This document shows positions 14,092 through 33,986 of a DNA stretch of 64,000 bases, piece by piece. The stretch's first letter is position 1, and every line of letters starts with the position of its first letter. The position numbers and the translations under genes are program-made. The DNA comes from Arthrobacter sp. HY1533 (GTDB lineage Bacteria > Actinomycetota > Actinomycetes > Actinomycetales > Micrococcaceae). The notes under the pieces were generated by a model that saw nothing but the letters and a program-made list of their open reading frames with translations, was not told the origin of the DNA and did not search any database. The stretch lies in contig NZ_JANKZF010000006.1 in the NCBI RefSeq assembly GCF_027568515.1, forward strand, positions 1-64,000, in the 5' to 3' direction.

Positions 14092-16749
14092 TCAAGAGGA
14101 ATATGCCTCTGAGGGCACCTTTGCGCGGTCGCCGTTCATCAGGGCGGCCAGTTGTTCCCGTGACTGGATGTCCAGCTTGATGAACGTCCTGTACAGGTGC
14201 CCCTCGATGGTGCGGAGGGAAACATTCAACCGTTCGGCGATGGAATTGTTTGATTCCCCCCGGGCCACGAGCAACGCAATCTGGTGCTCCCGCCGAGTCA
14301 TCTTGGGCTGGTCGATGGACTGGAACACCGGAGAGACCAGGCCTGGCATTTGCTCGCGCATGGCCACAACCTTGCTGGCGGTCTTGCGGCTCTTGTGGAC
14401 CTTGCCCCGGTCATTGAACTTCTTCAGCGCCTGGGTGGCAAGTTCAACGGCGACAAGTTCAAAACCGTAGTCAAGGGCGATTGCACTGGCCCGGTCCAGG
14501 CTGGCTGGATCCTGCGACTGCACGGCGCTGGACCACTCCACATAGAAGTCCTTGCAGGTGGATTCAAGCTGCAAGGAGGCCTCGGCGAGCCTAGGCACGG
14601 ATGCGCTGTCCCCAATCCTCACAAGCAGCCCCAGCACCGTCAGTTCGATGCCGAGGTAGCCGCGGTTCAGGCACTCGCGCTGCAGGCTGCGCAGTCGGGC
14701 CAGGCCAAGTTCGGCCTGCCCGGTCATGACCTGGGCGGCTGCGGCGTAAGCCGCTCCGTCAAGTTCATAAAACTTGCCGCTCCGGCGGTTCTGCGAGGCC
14801 AGGTGATTCAGGGACTCCTGCGAGCCTGCAAGGTCTCCACGCATGACCTGGCAGTAGGCCAAAAGCCCCAGGGCCGTGGTCAGGACCGACCAGGGGTCAT
14901 AGTCGCCCAGGGCGCCCACGGCCGATTCGAGGGAGACCAGTGCTTCCTCAATGTGGCCTCGCCGGCAGTGCATCATGGCCTCGGCCAGATCCCGGAGGCC
15001 GCCCGAATAGAGCATCATGTCCGGATTGGTGAACGTCGCCGGATCCAGGGCGAATTCCACATGGCTCCATGCGCCGTCGTAAATAAATGCCGCGACGGAA
15101 CGTGAGTAGGCGAGGATGGCGATGTCCGGCCGGGGGAATCCGGCCGGGTGCTCCAGAACACCAATGACCTCCATGGCCATTTCCACTGCGCCGGTCAGTT
15201 GCCCCGTGGCACTGAGCACTTCACACTGCAGGGACTTGAGCAGGACCTGATCGCCCGAATTGGCCGTGCCGGGGTGGGCCAGCAGGTCCTGGATGCGTGT
15301 TTCAGCGGCTGCAACGTCTCCAAGTGAGACGTCCCTGGCGGCAAGAAGCAGCAGGACATCGATGTCGGCCCGAGTTGAAGATTCGTTCAGTGCCGTTGTG
15401 CCGAAGCGGTCTTCATGGCGGGCGAGTGCATCATTGAAGCGCTTTTCATAGTCCACCTCCGAGACATGGGCAAGGTGCACCGCCCGCAGTGCCGCGGCGG
15501 CAGCCTTCGGCGAATCTGCCAGGTCCAGCGCCCGCAGGGCAACGGCGCGGGCCTCATCGGGCAGGTTCTTGTTAAGCAGCGCAATGGCCCGTTCCGCCAT
15601 CAATTCGGCCGAAATTGCAACACCTGTCTTGTTGCTGCTGAACTGCAGGGCGTCAATGGGGCGCATGAGCTGGTTTGCCCAGACAGTGGCCTCCAGAATC
15701 CTGTCCTTGCCCACCGGAAGCCCGCAGTCCAGGGACCAGCGGGTGAAGTTGATGATCCTCTCGGCATCCAGGTGGTCGTCCATGGGAAGGACCTCTCCCA
15801 CATCCGCCAAAAGGCGCCGGCTGCGGCCCACGGGGACAATGGCCCTGATGGAGGCCGCCGTGGCCTGGCGGGACAAGCGCATAGTGAGGACTTCGCCGGG
15901 GACAATCTCCACCAATTCACGCTGCTGGATGTCGTCAACGGATTCCGGGCCCGTCAAATCCAGCAGCGCATCCAGGGGCAGCGGCCCTGCCAGCGCCAAG
16001 ATCTCAATGATGCGCCGGGAGCCCGGCGGGACATGGTCAAGCTCCATTTGCAGGAACTCCCAGGACTCCACGCCGAGTTGGTCGGCTGGATGGTCCAGTA
16101 TCCACACATTGTTGACTTTTCGCAGGGAGCCTTCCTCCTCGGCCCCCGCCACGAGGCCCCGCAAGACCAGCGGGTTTCCCGCCGAACGGCTGGTCAGGTA
16201 GTCGGCGGCCGGGCGTGCAACCTTGCCTCCAAGCACTCCCTCCAGGTACGCCTGGACTTCCTCGGCCCGCAGCGGGGCGAGTTCAAAGCGGGTCAGGTGC
16301 CCGTCGCGCCACAGTTCACGCAGGTGCGTGTGGTGCCCGCCGGGCTGGTCCACGAGGATGAGCTTGGCCTCGGTGGACATGACCACCTGGATGATGATTG
16401 CCGCGCTTTGGCTGTCAAGGTGTTCGGCGTTGTCCACCATGAGAAAAACACGATGCCCGGCCGTGACGGAGTCACTGATTTGATCCAGCAGCCCGTTGAG
16501 CACCTCATAGTAGTCACTGCTGCGGACCAGGTTTGCGCCTACGCGGGCGTTCACTGCCCCGAAAGGTATGGCCGACAACGCCTTGCTGGCCGCAAACCTG
16601 ATGGTGACCGATTCCGGGCCAAGGGCAGCAAGAATCTGGCCCAGTGTCCACGTCTTACCCGTGCCGCGTGAACCGACGATCAGCACCCCCCTCGAAGAGG
16701 TGCCGTTCAATTCGTTGACTATGTCCCCAACGTTTGCCCGGCGGGCCAC
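14092..16749 (-). CDS. large ATP-binding LuxR-family transcriptional regulator
   Basis: 885 residues. LAL/MalT-like layout: an N-terminal STAND-type ATPase with Walker A GSRGTGKT (26-33) and a Walker B-like VFLMVDNAEHLD, a long helical middle with TPR-like character, and a C-terminal LuxR helix-turn-helix (about 815-875, LTRREHQIALLVARGES and NNSIAERLNVSLRTIEGHL). Such proteins activate target promoters when an inducer binds, but the inducer here is unknown. The GTG start at 16749 directly precedes the expected N-terminal strand. No adjacent catabolic operon gives a clue. Repeated CACTCTAATT motifs lie past its 3' end, and a DnaA-box cluster lies upstream. Confidence 0.85.
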   Translation of the reverse strand: MARRANVGDIVNELNGTSSRGVLIVGSRGTGKTWTLGQILAALGPESVTIRFAASKALSAIPFGAVNARVGANLVRSSDYYEVLNGLLDQISDSVTAGHRVFLMVDNAEHLDSQSAAIIIQVVMSTEAKLILVDQPGGHHTHLRELWRDGHLTRFELAPLRAEEVQAYLEGVLGGKVARPAADYLTSRSAGNPLVLRGLVAGAEEEGSLRKVNNVWILDHPADQLGVESWEFLQMELDHVPPGSRRIIEILALAGPLPLDALLDLTGPESVDDIQQRELVEIVPGEVLTMRLSRQATAASIRAIVPVGRSRRLLADVGEVLPMDDHLDAERIINFTRWSLDCGLPVGKDRILEATVWANQLMRPIDALQFSSNKTGVAISAELMAERAIALLNKNLPDEARAVALRALDLADSPKAAAAALRAVHLAHVSEVDYEKRFNDALARHEDRFGTTALNESSTRADIDVLLLLAARDVSLGDVAAAETRIQDLLAHPGTANSGDQVLLKSLQCEVLSATGQLTGAVEMAMEVIGVLEHPAGFPRPDIAILAYSRSVAAFIYDGAWSHVEFALDPATFTNPDMMLYSGGLRDLAEAMMHCRRGHIEEALVSLESAVGALGDYDPWSVLTTALGLLAYCQVMRGDLAGSQESLNHLASQNRRSGKFYELDGAAYAAAAQVMTGQAELGLARLRSLQRECLNRGYLGIELTVLGLLVRIGDSASVPRLAEASLQLESTCKDFYVEWSSAVQSQDPASLDRASAIALDYGFELVAVELATQALKKFNDRGKVHKSRKTASKVVAMREQMPGLVSPVFQSIDQPKMTRREHQIALLVARGESNNSIAERLNVSLRTIEGHLYRTFIKLDIQSREQLAALMNGDRAKVPSEAYSS

Positions 16750-16944
16750 AAATCCCCATTTCGTGAAATTCAGTCCCCAGCTGCGGGACCTGCTCGACCG
16801 TGGCGGCGCCGTTGCCGGGCGCCGCCATGAAGTGAAACCACAAAAACTAGCCTCAGTCTATGTAGCCACATGCAATGTGTCGACGCAATCGCCAGCATCT
16901 GGACTTGCCCTCGGCGCAAAGAACAAATCCACAGGCCGCCCATG
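16750..16944. other. upstream region of LuxR-type regulator
   Basis: No gene seen. On the minus strand this should hold the promoter and leader of the regulator gene. The DnaA-box cluster begins at its right side. Confidence 0.3.
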
Positions 16945-17310
16945 CGACTGTCCCCAAGGTTATCCACACTGTGGGTAACCTTTTCCCACAACCCACAGAG
17001 TTGTCCACGGATGTTCACAACTCATTCGAACTATCCACAAGCAATTTTCGAAACTGTGGTTATCCATAGTTGTTCACAAAGTTATCCACAGAAGTGGATA
17101 ACTTTGTGACCCATTTCGCGGCAACCCGGCAAAATCAGCGCGGGAAAGTAATCCACAGCTGTGGAATTACATGTGTGTAACTTATGCCCAGTGTGCACAA
17201 CCCTGTGGAGAACACCGTGTACGACGAATCCTCAACTACTAGAACTACAGCTCTGTAAGTTATGCCCATATGTGGACATCCATGTGGATAACTGTGGATA
17301 CATGGGACGA
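16945..17310. other. dense cluster of DnaA boxes far from dnaA
   Basis: Perfect TTATCCACA boxes lie at 16960-16968 and 17082-17090, and on the minus strand at 17283-17291. Single-mismatch copies include TTACCCACA (minus, 16970), TTGTCCACG (17001), CTATCCACA (17031), TTATCCATA (17060), TTGTTCACA (17070), TTATCCACT (minus, 17093), TAATCCACA (17149), TTCTCCACA (minus, near 17204), ATGTCCACA (minus, 17271) and GTATCCACA (minus, 17293). That is about thirteen or more sites in 366 bp, on both strands, and denser than either oriC interval. The sequence is noncoding and ends at the flavin reductase start. It could titrate or reactivate DnaA, or be a secondary initiation site. Confidence 0.75.
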
Positions 17311-17317
17311 TGATGCC

Positions 17318-17872
17318 ATGGAACTAGCTGATCCCCTCGATGCCCACAGAGTTTTCCCACAGCAATTGACACAGGATGCGATCGACGAATTCCGGCGCCT
17401 GGGCGGTGAACAGGCAAGCGGAGTGGCCATCATCAGCACCACGGAACGCGGCCGCGACCATGCGGCCACGGTGAGTTCCTTCCTGTCAGTGTCCTATGAC
17501 CCACCGACATTGCTCGTCAGCCTGTATGCGGAGTCCCGGATCGCCCAGGCTGTTGCAGCCCGGGGCGCGTGGGCGTTGTCTATTCTCACGGCGGACCAGA
17601 AGTCGGCGGCGAACTGGCTGGCCAGCCCGGGCACGCCCATTGAGGGCCTGTTGAGCCAGGTTGAATTCAGGCGCGGCCCAGTGACCGGCAATGCGGTGAT
17701 AGCCGGCGCGCTGGCCTATTTTGAGGTGGAGACCACCGCCGTCCACGAGGCGGCGACCCACCTTCTTGTGGTGGGCAATGTGGTGTCAATGGGGGAGGAT
17801 GCGCCACTTACCAGGGAGCTGTCCCCCCTGGTCCACTACGGCGGCAGCTACAGCCGGCTCAGCCGAGGATGA
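17318..17872 (+). CDS. flavin reductase-like FMN-binding protein
   Basis: 184 residues of the flavin_reduct split-barrel family, which reduce or bind FMN/FAD and often serve monooxygenases. The segments ASGVAIISTTERGRDHAATV and SFLSVSYDPPTLLVSLYAES form the typical FMN-binding core, and HLLVVGNVV lies near the end. ATG 17318 is preferred because a frame open from 17270 would run through DnaA boxes. No monooxygenase is adjacent. The 3' end overlaps the convergent rhomboid gene by 14 bp. DnaA boxes end only a few bases upstream, so DnaA may affect its transcription. Confidence 0.85.
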   Translation: MELADPLDAHRVFPQQLTQDAIDEFRRLGGEQASGVAIISTTERGRDHAATVSSFLSVSYDPPTLLVSLYAESRIAQAVAARGAWALSILTADQKSAANWLASPGTPIEGLLSQVEFRRGPVTGNAVIAGALAYFEVETTAVHEAATHLLVVGNVVSMGEDAPLTRELSPLVHYGGSYSRLSRG

Positions 17873-31501: not shown

Positions 31502-31967
31502 GGAAGGGTGCCGCCTTTCATGGTGCGAAAAAAGTTCAGTGAGCGCCCAACAGTGCTGCCAGGTGGAAGTGCCCACAGCAGGAGGACGCAAATTACATGC
31601 TTGGAGACAGCTTAGCCCCTAGAACTGCCCACGTGGGCATTGCTCTGCACTGCCTGCAGGGCGTCGAACCGGGGAAAGGTAAATGTTCTTTGAAACGAAG
31701 AATTCTTGTAGTTCGTAGTGTTAATAAGTCCTGTGGATACTGTGGATAACTGCCCTGCGTCACGGGATCGCACCGAAGTTGCCTGTGCACAGCCTGTGGG
31801 GTCATCCCGCTTGTGGCTGTGGGGCGAAGTGGAGAACTTTTGGCGCCAATTTAATGATCCACAGGGACCCCCTGAGTTATCCGCAGGGAGTGTGCACTTG
31901 TGCCCTTTTAATCCACAGGCTTATCCACAGCTGTTAATTTCTCAGAAATTTTTCTCCGCTGCGCGGA
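31502..31967. other. oriC: oriC interval between dnaA and dnaN
   Basis: 466 bp without genes. DnaA boxes: GTATCCACA (minus, 31732-31740), perfect TTATCCACA (minus, 31741-31749), TGATCCACA (31855-31863), TTATCCGCA (31877-31885), TAATCCACA (31909-31917), perfect TTATCCACA (31921-31929). An A/T-richer tract at about 31680-31730 (contains GTTAATAAG) is a candidate unwinding element. A perfect 14-bp palindrome, TGCCCACGTGGGCA, lies at 31626-31639 toward dnaN. Confidence 0.8.
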
Positions 31968-33404
31968 CTATCCCTCGCGCTGCTGCTGCTTGATCTTGTT
32001 GGTCAGCTCCGTGACCTGGTTGTAGATGGCCCGGCGTTCGGCCATCAACTCGCGGATCTTGCGGTCTGCATGGATCACAGTTGTATGGTCGCGGCCACCG
32101 AATTCCTGCCCAATCTTCGGCAGGGACATGTCAGTCAGCTCACGGCACAGGTACATGGCGATCTGCCGGGCAGTCACCAGGGTCCGTGTCCTGGACTTGC
32201 TGCACAGCTCCTCCAGCGAGATGTTGAAGTAGGCGGCCGTCTGCCCCAGGATCGCCGTCGAGGTGATTTCCTGCGCACCGTCGTCGGTGATGAGGTCCTT
32301 GAGCACCAGTTCGGCCAGGCCAACATCCACCGGCTGGCGGTTCAGGCTTGCGAATGCGGTGACGCGGATCAGGGCACCCTCGAGCTCACGGATGTTCGTG
32401 GAGATCTTCGATGCGATGTATTCCAGGGCGTCGTCCGGGGCGGAAAGGCCTTCGCCAATGGCCTTTTTGCGCAGGATCGCGATGCGGGTTTCCAGTTCCG
32501 GCGGCTGCACATCGGTCAGCAGGCCCCACTCGAAGCGTGAACGCATGCGTTCCTCAAAGCCCTGGAGGCGCTTCGGCGGAAGGTCGGAGGTGATGACAAC
32601 CTGCTTGTTGTGGTTGTGCAGGGCGTTGAAGGTGTGGAAGAACTCTTCCTGGGTGGCATCCTTGTTGGCCAGGAACTGGATGTCGTCAATCAGCAGGATG
32701 TCCACGTTGCGGTACAGCTGCTTGAAGCTGGCGCCCTCGTCATCGCGGATGGAGTTGATGAAATCGTTCGTGAATTCCTCCGAATTCACGTACCGGACGC
32801 GGATTCCCGTGTACAGGCGGCGGGCATAGTGTCCGATCGCGTGCAGCAGGTGGGTCTTGCCCAGACCCGAATCACCATAGATGAACAGCGGGTTGTAGGC
32901 CTTGGCCGGGGCCTCTGCGACGGCAACGGCCGCGGCGTGCGCAAATCGGTTGGAGGAACCGATGACAAAGGAGTCAAAAATGTACTTCGGGTTCAGCCGG
33001 CCAAACTCCTGCGAGGTACTCGGCGGTGTGGGGGCCGGCTTCGAGGGCTGTTCCTGCGGTTCGTGGTGCACAGGCTGTTCCGTGCGGATGGCCACGGGGG
33101 CCGGGGCCGGCTCTTCTTCCTTTGCCGGCGGCACCAGGTCTGCGTTGACGCTGAAGGCGCAGCTGATTTCCTCGGAGAACACCTGGCCCAGTGCATCGTT
33201 GAGTGCCGTGCTGAGCTGGTTCTGCAGCACTTCGCGCGTCAGTTCATTGGGAACCGCAACCAGCAGGGTGTTTCCAATCAGGCCCTGGGGCTGTGTGAGA
33301 ACCACAAAGCCGCGCTGCCGCGGGGAAACCCTTTCATCCTGTTCCAGGATGCGGATGACCCGTCGCCAGGAACTTCCAACGTCATTGATGTCCTCAGTGC
33401 TCAT
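31968..33404 (-). CDS. dnaA: chromosomal replication initiator DnaA
   Basis: 478 residues. Domain I (about 1-95), a Pro/Glu-rich linker (about 95-140), an AAA+ core with Walker A GDSGLGKTHLL, Walker B ILLIDDIQFLANK and the arginine-finger region, and a C-terminal helix-turn-helix with FGGRDHTTVIHADRKI that reads DnaA boxes. The ATG at 33404 has AAGGAAC as RBS. Boxes occur on both sides of the gene and in a remote cluster near 17 kb. Confidence 0.98.
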   Translation of the reverse strand: MSTEDINDVGSSWRRVIRILEQDERVSPRQRGFVVLTQPQGLIGNTLLVAVPNELTREVLQNQLSTALNDALGQVFSEEISCAFSVNADLVPPAKEEEPAPAPVAIRTEQPVHHEPQEQPSKPAPTPPSTSQEFGRLNPKYIFDSFVIGSSNRFAHAAAVAVAEAPAKAYNPLFIYGDSGLGKTHLLHAIGHYARRLYTGIRVRYVNSEEFTNDFINSIRDDEGASFKQLYRNVDILLIDDIQFLANKDATQEEFFHTFNALHNHNKQVVITSDLPPKRLQGFEERMRSRFEWGLLTDVQPPELETRIAILRKKAIGEGLSAPDDALEYIASKISTNIRELEGALIRVTAFASLNRQPVDVGLAELVLKDLITDDGAQEITSTAILGQTAAYFNISLEELCSKSRTRTLVTARQIAMYLCRELTDMSLPKIGQEFGGRDHTTVIHADRKIRELMAERRAIYNQVTELTNKIKQQQREG

Positions 33405-33986
33405 TGAATGTTCCTTACCTTAACGCCGGTTGGCCCACCGGAATGCTTGTCTGTTAACCCACGCTGCCCGTGATGTCCGTTACACACCGCAGGCCTGTGG
33501 ACTGGATGCGGGGGAAGCAACCCAAATACGGCTAAACCGCCGTAATCCACAGAGTTATGCACATCGGTGGATAACTTGCTACTGGCCTAGCCTAAAGGAT
33601 GGATACTCCAGAAGATAGCTGGAGAAAGGGGTTGTGGATAAATGTCACAGGGGTGTGCCGGATCGGGCTTCTTCCACAGGCATTGTCCACGGAGTTGTGC
33701 ACAGCTGTGGATGAACTGCCCCGGCTCCTGCAGAACCCTGTTGAGTGCTCTGTTGGGCACTGCCGGGAGCCGCCTGGCGGCCGATCGGGCGTCTGGCCGT
33801 TTGACTGCAGGTGCGCCAATGACCTAATGTTGTGAAGTCCCATGTGTCTGCTTTGCGCTACCGCGTACGCTTGTCAAGTATTTCTTGAGAAGCGAGAAGC
33901 CGGCATCCATATACTTAGCGTCGACCCCTTTCTTACCCTGTTAGCTGCGGGCAAGGCGCATCTTTGATTGTCTTGGAGTAACTACC
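33405..33986. other. oriC: oriC interval between rpmH and dnaA
   Basis: DnaA boxes: TAATCCACA (33543-33551), TTATGCACA (33555-33563), TTATCCACC (minus, 33566-33574), perfect TTATCCACA (minus, 33633-33641), TTGTCCACG (33683-33691), TTGTGCACA (33694-33702), TCATCCACA (minus, 33706-33714). This is the second half of the origin. Toward rpmH a TTGAGA (33885-33890) and TATACT (33910-33915), 19 bp apart, may form the rpmH promoter. Confidence 0.78.

Follow-up and report, generated by a model that had tools for sequence, protein, structure and literature searches.

The chromosome of Arthrobacter sp. HY1533 carries, between the gene of a rhomboid-family membrane protein and crgA, a cluster of DnaA boxes which is conserved at this place in the Micrococcaceae and well beyond, has a preferred box spacing, is joined by a second, palindromic motif and is probably separate from the replication origin. 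Judged from the sequence, the element is probably an undescribed switch which limits how often the chromosome is copied. Slightly better than even, in our estimate, are the chances of a more specific reading, namely that it is an origin-proximal cis element of the datA type, distinct from oriC, which would sequester DnaA together with a putative partner protein and thereby damp re-initiation; this suggestion draws on the sequence and on the analogy to known systems. To our knowledge, it is largely open how actinobacteria keep DnaA from firing the origin twice, and we do not know of any use of Hda, SeqA, or Dam by them. One syntenic site across many families together with a nearly unique motif gives deletion work a well-defined site and provides a bait with which the partner protein could be captured. 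All coordinates refer to the analyzed stretch of 64,000 nucleotides, called the window in the following, unless stated otherwise.

Ten DnaA boxes are found on both strands between positions 16960 and 17301, three of them perfect copies of TTATCCACA (16960+, 17082+, and 17283−) and seven with one mismatch. An earlier note on this DNA had rightly named three perfect boxes on both strands but had put the one-mismatch boxes at about ten; ten other sites, in or just beside the region 16945–17310 which we take as the cluster, have two mismatches, and the outermost of these (16925–16933) lies just outside. In 2000 dinucleotide shuffles of this region a mean of 0.17 boxes and a maximum of 3 was obtained. 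The region thus combines several boxes in noncoding DNA outside oriC with a number above chance expectation, and elements of this sort, clusters of DnaA boxes which are not part of oriC, are known. The 4.30 Mb assembly has 17 perfect boxes, three in the cluster, three flanking dnaA, and 11 elsewhere, each of the latter being single on its contig. The distance between the cluster and dnaA, previously given as about 15 kb, is 14.7 kb. Compared to either flank of dnaA the cluster has more boxes in total but, contrary to the earlier claim, is not denser per base: its 10 boxes are spread over 342 bp, while 198 bp on the dnaN side have 6 and 172 bp upstream of dnaA have 5.

Several boxes of the cluster are arranged in close pairs. 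At 16960–16978 a box TTATCCACA on the plus strand (16960–16968) and a box TTACCCACA on the minus strand (16970–16978) form a convergent pair with an offset of 10, and at 17074–17109 a perfect 16-bp inverted repeat encloses the convergent boxes 17082+ and 17093−, whose offset is 11. A tandem pair with an offset of 10, TTATCCACA and GTATCCACA, is located on the minus strand at 17283–17301, 16 bases before the ATG at 17318. With this ATG as the start of the flavin reductase gene the 366 bp are noncoding, as the earlier note had it; with an alternative in-frame ATG at 17270 they are not entirely so.

Reading leftward, the window contains dnaA (31968–33404, minus strand), dnaN, recF (assigned from position and sequence alone), gyrB, gyrA, two tRNA genes, ppiA, the rhomboid gene (PF01694; 17859–18722, minus strand, with its 3′ end towards the cluster), a flavin reductase gene (PF01613; 17318–17872, plus strand), the cluster, the gene of a large LuxR-type ATPase regulator with GerE and AAA domains (14092–16749, minus strand, start at 16749), and crgA (PF06781; 12857–13195, plus strand), which codes for a cell-division protein and is the usual far-side neighbor of the element in relatives. 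The earlier placing between crgA and the cyclophilin gene is correct, but the luxR, flavin reductase, and rhomboid genes lie within this interval as well. Among 12 stretches compared, only the window and a complete genome of the same genus (G024) have the flavin reductase and luxR genes beside the cluster, and in none of 63 named loci are these genes found beside the rhomboid locus. Several members of the family, this genome included, have other genes inserted between crgA and the rhomboid gene. Outside the family, 36 of the 39 named syntenic loci have crgA facing the rhomboid gene, as do 17 of 19 in the Micrococcaceae, so that the boxes lie mostly at 3′ ends and a shared promoter is unlikely to explain them.

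The neighborhood of dnaA, gyrA, ppiA, and crgA is broken or stretched in some relatives (G001, G049, G071, G042, and G066), where about 44–149 kb separate dnaA from the rhomboid gene, and in G042 and G066 these two genes are on opposite strands. The rhomboid protein of the window has an N-terminal cysteine-rich zinc finger which resembles a B-box, with a Pfam match below the cut-off, and the cysteines of this finger are invariant among 12 aligned sequences.

Retention of the boxes at this locus in relatives had been set beforehand as a test of the proposed remote DnaA-regulating cluster. The boxes are kept, in the family and well beyond. When 80 genomes of Micrococcaceae were searched, boxes were found after the rhomboid gene, mostly on the side of crgA, in 79; one genome with a truncated rhomboid match was left out of the box count. 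All 30 fetched loci have 2–15 boxes within 1.5 kb after the rhomboid gene, and 40 further loci have at least one box in every case and at least three in 38. Eight more Micrococcaceae contained in longer stretches have at least three boxes each, the locus L098 has two, and at least three are found in all 19 named loci of the family. One genus of the family (L013, L020, and L021) keeps just 2–4 scattered boxes. The element is still present where the rhomboid locus is 108 kb (G001) and 149 kb (G049) away from dnaA.

Outside the family, we compared named loci and samples of the order and the class. The 80 named loci comprise the 19 of the Micrococcaceae, 49 of other families with ppiA beside the rhomboid gene, and 12 without ppiA or crgA in reach. 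At least one box is present in 43 of the 49 syntenic loci (34 of 39 and 9 of 10) and none in six, whereas the 12 non-syntenic loci, which serve as negative control, have no box, two of them offering less than 200 bp of sequence there. Of 40 genera sampled from the rest of the order, 38 have boxes, in 33 of them two or more and in 23 three or more; these loci contain 126 boxes together compared to a shuffle mean of 3.7 and to 4 boxes in the adjoining 700 bp of all 40 loci. This sample excluded 13 genera fetched earlier, whose 22 loci have one or two boxes in 16 cases, never more, and none in six (five of them from one genus), so that 12 of the 13 genera have at least one box. Taken together, at least one box is found in 50 of 53 genera of the order and at least three in 23 of 53. 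Among the best 30 of 113 class-wide matches, boxes follow the rhomboid gene in 22 and are absent in eight. Named syntenic loci of Streptomyces have 3–4 boxes. Mycobacteria seemed to lack the element, as no box was found at five rhomboid loci, but these rhomboid genes are located elsewhere; at the mycobacterial ppiA–crgA locus there is a perfect box beside crgA in four of five cases and a one-mismatch box in the fifth. A locus of the order sample (L357, family f4) has 14 boxes in the same gap, apparently by an independent expansion. Since the boxes are kept at the locus in relatives, a remote cluster regulating DnaA, as the earlier note had proposed, appears to be the best reading.

The arrangement of the boxes is not random in orientation and distance. 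Tandem (53) and convergent (42) arrangements account for all 95 adjacent pairs at most 14 bp apart in 49 family loci; no pair is divergent, and an offset of 11 is the most frequent convergent spacing in the family. Neighboring boxes favor a spacing of 10–14 bp, that is about one helical turn. A first periodicity test gave a period of 10.9 bp with p = 0.0005, the signal coming mostly from the 10–14 bp spacings. Without distances below 16 bp we obtained p = 0.008 with a period of 11.1 in 13 genera and p = 0.006 with a period of 9.7 in 30 genera, all these statistics ignoring the shared ancestry among the genera. Long-range helical phasing was dropped, as it is weak beyond 16 bp and its period is unstable, and we therefore limit our claim to a preference for a spacing of about one turn.

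Two further groups of boxes deserve mention. Upstream of dnaA (33543–33714; loci L116–L145), 21 of 29 loci have a triple consisting of a plus-strand box, a minus-strand box 11 or 12 bp on and another minus-strand box 12 bp further, which resembles a shortened DARS core and perhaps takes part in dnaA autoregulation. Another group of five boxes is located upstream of dnaB (G000:C10, 59307–60662, minus strand; locus L210) and could serve as another control site or as an operator of dnaB; the corresponding region has 2–8 boxes in the 30 family loci fetched out of 80, with a convergent pair of offset 14 seen 11 times. The dnaB gene of G024 (L040) is one long frame of 879 amino acids with an apparent intein, and a split dnaB match occurs in several other genomes of the family.

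Besides the boxes, the cluster contains two copies of a second motif, both on the minus strand: TGGGCATAAGTTACACACATGTAATTC at 17164–17190, with the palindrome TTACA-N4-TGTAA, and TGGGCATAACTTACAGAGCTGTAGTTC at 17242–17268. The extended motif TGGGCATAASTTACANNNNTGTARTTC has these two copies and no other in the genome when up to three mismatches are allowed; its 19-base core has one additional genomic site at one mismatch, in a 3-kb locus without DnaA boxes. With at most one mismatch the palindrome is present in all 49 family loci of one set (30 fetched and 19 named). A second family set has it in 30 of its 40 loci. Among the 49 named syntenic loci of other families there are 25 with the palindrome (21 of 39 and 4 of 10), and within the order it occurs in 17 of the 40 sampled genera and 8 of the 22 further loci. 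Among the controls, 320 kb of sequence gave a single match and 690 kb gave none. No palindrome was found at the loci of Streptomyces and the mycobacteria, though boxes are present there. The palindrome also keeps preferred distances to the boxes: of 82 palindromes from the family, 36 are preceded by a box whose start is exactly 20 bp ahead, and in 8 of 19 palindromes of the order a box abuts it, 14 bp after its start. An RNA hairpin or terminator was considered and rejected: the AT-rich arms speak against it, and both terminator-like matches in the region involve different stems. The loci were found by letter match, so that co-varying forms would escape. The literature searched has no paper on the palindrome, an absence which says little as many subscription papers were beyond reach.

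The replication origin lies most likely between dnaA and dnaN. In the window this gap contains, at 31715–31749 on the minus strand, a probable unwinding module of oriC, composed of the boxes TTATCCACA and GTATCCACA, a 4-base spacer and the block TTATTAACACTAC. The same order of a box like TTATCCACA, a second box, the 4-base spacer and TTATTAACACTAC is found in the gap of the 30 best-matching of 80 dnaA loci, the block being exact in 28 of them and having one mismatch in two. Of 13 genomes checked separately, 10 have the block at dnaA with no more than one mismatch, while the divergent G011, G044, and G049 have an altered form with three to four mismatches. An exact-block comparison with 30 cluster regions never found TTATTAACACTAC there with fewer than two mismatches. 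The layout of the gap matches the plan of box, spacer, and trio set out in the available part of PMC8287927, and for a Kocuria, too, oriC is predicted between dnaA and dnaN (PMC12500396, part of the text).

Mainly because of the GC skew, one might instead take the cluster for the true replication origin, for an additional one, or for an outlying part of a divided oriC. The cumulative skew minimum of the window is at 17522, i.e., at the cluster, and that of G024 is at 1771322, inside this genome's own cluster (400 kb examined). Eleven stretches, those of the window and 10 relatives, contain both the rhomboid locus and dnaA; in seven the minimum is closer to the rhomboid locus and in four closer to dnaA. 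At four-fold sites the minus-strand genes between both loci have a pooled skew of −0.159 and thus resemble the lagging genes left of the cluster (−0.161; another lagging set has −0.191) more than the leading genes (about −0.10), which if anything favors an origin at the cluster, whereas the interval's small number of plus-strand genes, with −0.178, lean away from it. However, the skew shift coincides with the change of gene strand, G026, which is without the cluster, shows a similar drop in its interval genes, and this strand-corrected test is confounded by gene-specific codon choice. Moreover, in the rearranged genomes the minimum is near the dnaA–dnaN gap and not at the cluster: in G001 it lies 0.1 kb beyond dnaN, with another, hardly shallower dip near 80 kb, and in G049 it lies 8.4 kb from the gap (400 kb examined in either case). 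The cluster thus has the boxes expected of an origin but neither the unwinding module of the family nor a skew minimum which stays with it after rearrangement. As the module found in most of the family and the skew of G001 and G049 point to an oriC between dnaA and dnaN, the cluster is probably separate from the origin, and a relocated or second origin was rejected as the main reading. We keep it as a very improbable rival, rated slightly higher because the module at dnaA is altered in three divergent genera.

The boxes might alternatively reactivate DnaA as the DARS sites do, with head-to-head boxes holding ADP-DnaA, releasing the ADP and promoting initiation, which we regard as unlikely. A convergent pair with an offset of 10–12 and a third box 12–14 bp aside occurs at 5 of 49 family loci and at 3 of 52 others, a set from which most boxless loci were left out, and such triples resemble the cores of E. 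coli DARS1 and DARS2 (+ 14 − 12 −). Head-to-head boxes are a prominent feature of DARS in the available part of a review (PMC5742627), and the second motif could parallel the IHF and Fis sites of DARS2. Nevertheless, none of the triples at the loci has exactly the spacing 14 and 12, the convergent spacing is 10–12 here as opposed to 14 in DARS, and triples of this kind occur much more often upstream of dnaA. While DARS cores are marked by convergent pairs, datA has one as well (boxes 4392906+ and 4392918−), so that the sequence is compatible with sequestration or reactivation. The DARS sites of E. coli lie far from oriC; reactivation beside oriC just after initiation would favor re-initiation.

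Quite improbable, in our opinion, is a role of the boxes as DnaA operators for the flavin reductase, luxR, rhomboid, or crgA gene, by which replication would be tied to the redox state or to division. It is true that 16 bases separate the last box from the ATG at 17318, that the cluster lies between two divergent genes in this genus and that crgA is a division gene. But where crgA faces the rhomboid gene no neighboring promoter is expected, and a scan for sigma-70-type promoters found its sole match in 16600–17500 left of the cluster (expectation 0.5). Redox-linked control, which had been suggested previously, is not supported, and a redox operator of the flavin reductase gene was rejected, as this gene, like luxR, was found beside the cluster in this genus only. 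There is likewise very little to be said for a locus which mainly organizes or anchors the chromosome, with the palindrome protein tethering or loading something near the origin and DnaA as its partner. In this genome the extended palindrome is practically confined to a single target locus, which is near the origin, and its spacing to the boxes shows preferences; on the other hand, there is no candidate for a palindrome-binding protein, and at the Streptomyces and mycobacterial loci the boxes remain without the palindrome.

We rather suggest an element which sequesters DnaA. It would be an old element, kept beside the rhomboid gene and crgA in actinobacteria and enlarged in the Micrococcaceae. 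DnaA would bind several boxes about one helical turn apart, as their sequence and spacing suggest, and a second, putative protein would bind the adjoining TTACA-N4-TGTAA, for which conservation, near uniqueness in the genome, and preferred spacing argue. Because the site is close to oriC it would be duplicated soon after initiation, and the doubled sites could take up, and perhaps help to inactivate, DnaA, so that re-initiation would be damped by analogy to datA and to the clusters of Streptomyces and Bacillus.

A wider reading is possible but rather doubtful: the gap between the rhomboid gene and crgA would be a class-wide actinobacterial site where DnaA and a dedicated palindrome protein with essentially one target reset DnaA after initiation, as an independent counterpart of datA and DARS. 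Its probability was lowered since the long-range phasing is weak. The literature reached does not mention a syntenic element of this kind, present across the class and joined by a second motif, and as subscription papers were often outside, this says little; literature passages on crgA and a DnaA box contained nothing of relevance.

How does the element compare to known systems? With E. coli DARS1 and DARS2 it shares a head-to-head pair with a third box beside it, and the available part of the review also gives partner-protein sites for DARS2 (PMC5742627). It differs by its convergent offset of 10–12 instead of 14, by the presence of the full triple at few loci and by its position beside oriC.

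Smulczyk-Krawczyszyn and colleagues reportedly described in 2006 three origin-proximal clusters of S. coelicolor (H69, H24, and D78), one of which, we presume, may be the same locus as this cluster; the literature searched has no paper on D78 with a DnaA box in S. coelicolor, and this absence says little. The DnaA-box clusters of B. subtilis are said to have been described by Okumura and colleagues in 2012, and we know of no second motif in them. Clusters in both B. subtilis and S. coelicolor repress untimely initiation according to the review (PMC5742627), and those of S. coelicolor are similar to the present one as non-oriC clusters of DnaA boxes in an actinobacterium, whereas the named syntenic Streptomyces loci differ by their 3–4 boxes and the missing palindrome. 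In B. subtilis the joint removal of non-origin clusters advances initiation (PMC5295017 and PMC13220808, excerpts); the excerpt of PMC5295017 reports this for the deletion of six clusters, yet the same paper also says that no clusters with significant roles have been identified in B. subtilis. The B. subtilis system differs in being distributed over several loci and, in these excerpts, in that a strong effect is reported solely for the removal of six.

E. coli datA, finally, is likewise noncoding, near oriC and composed of boxes and a partner site. It has five DnaA boxes and one IHF site and acts by its copy number, as given in the available parts of PMC5742627 and PMC4585315. The closeness to oriC is found for the present element as well, at 14.7 kb from dnaA in the window and at 108 and 149 kb in two relatives. 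The element differs from datA by its larger number of boxes, by unrelated neighboring genes and by its second motif, a conserved palindrome with a putative protein partner of its own.
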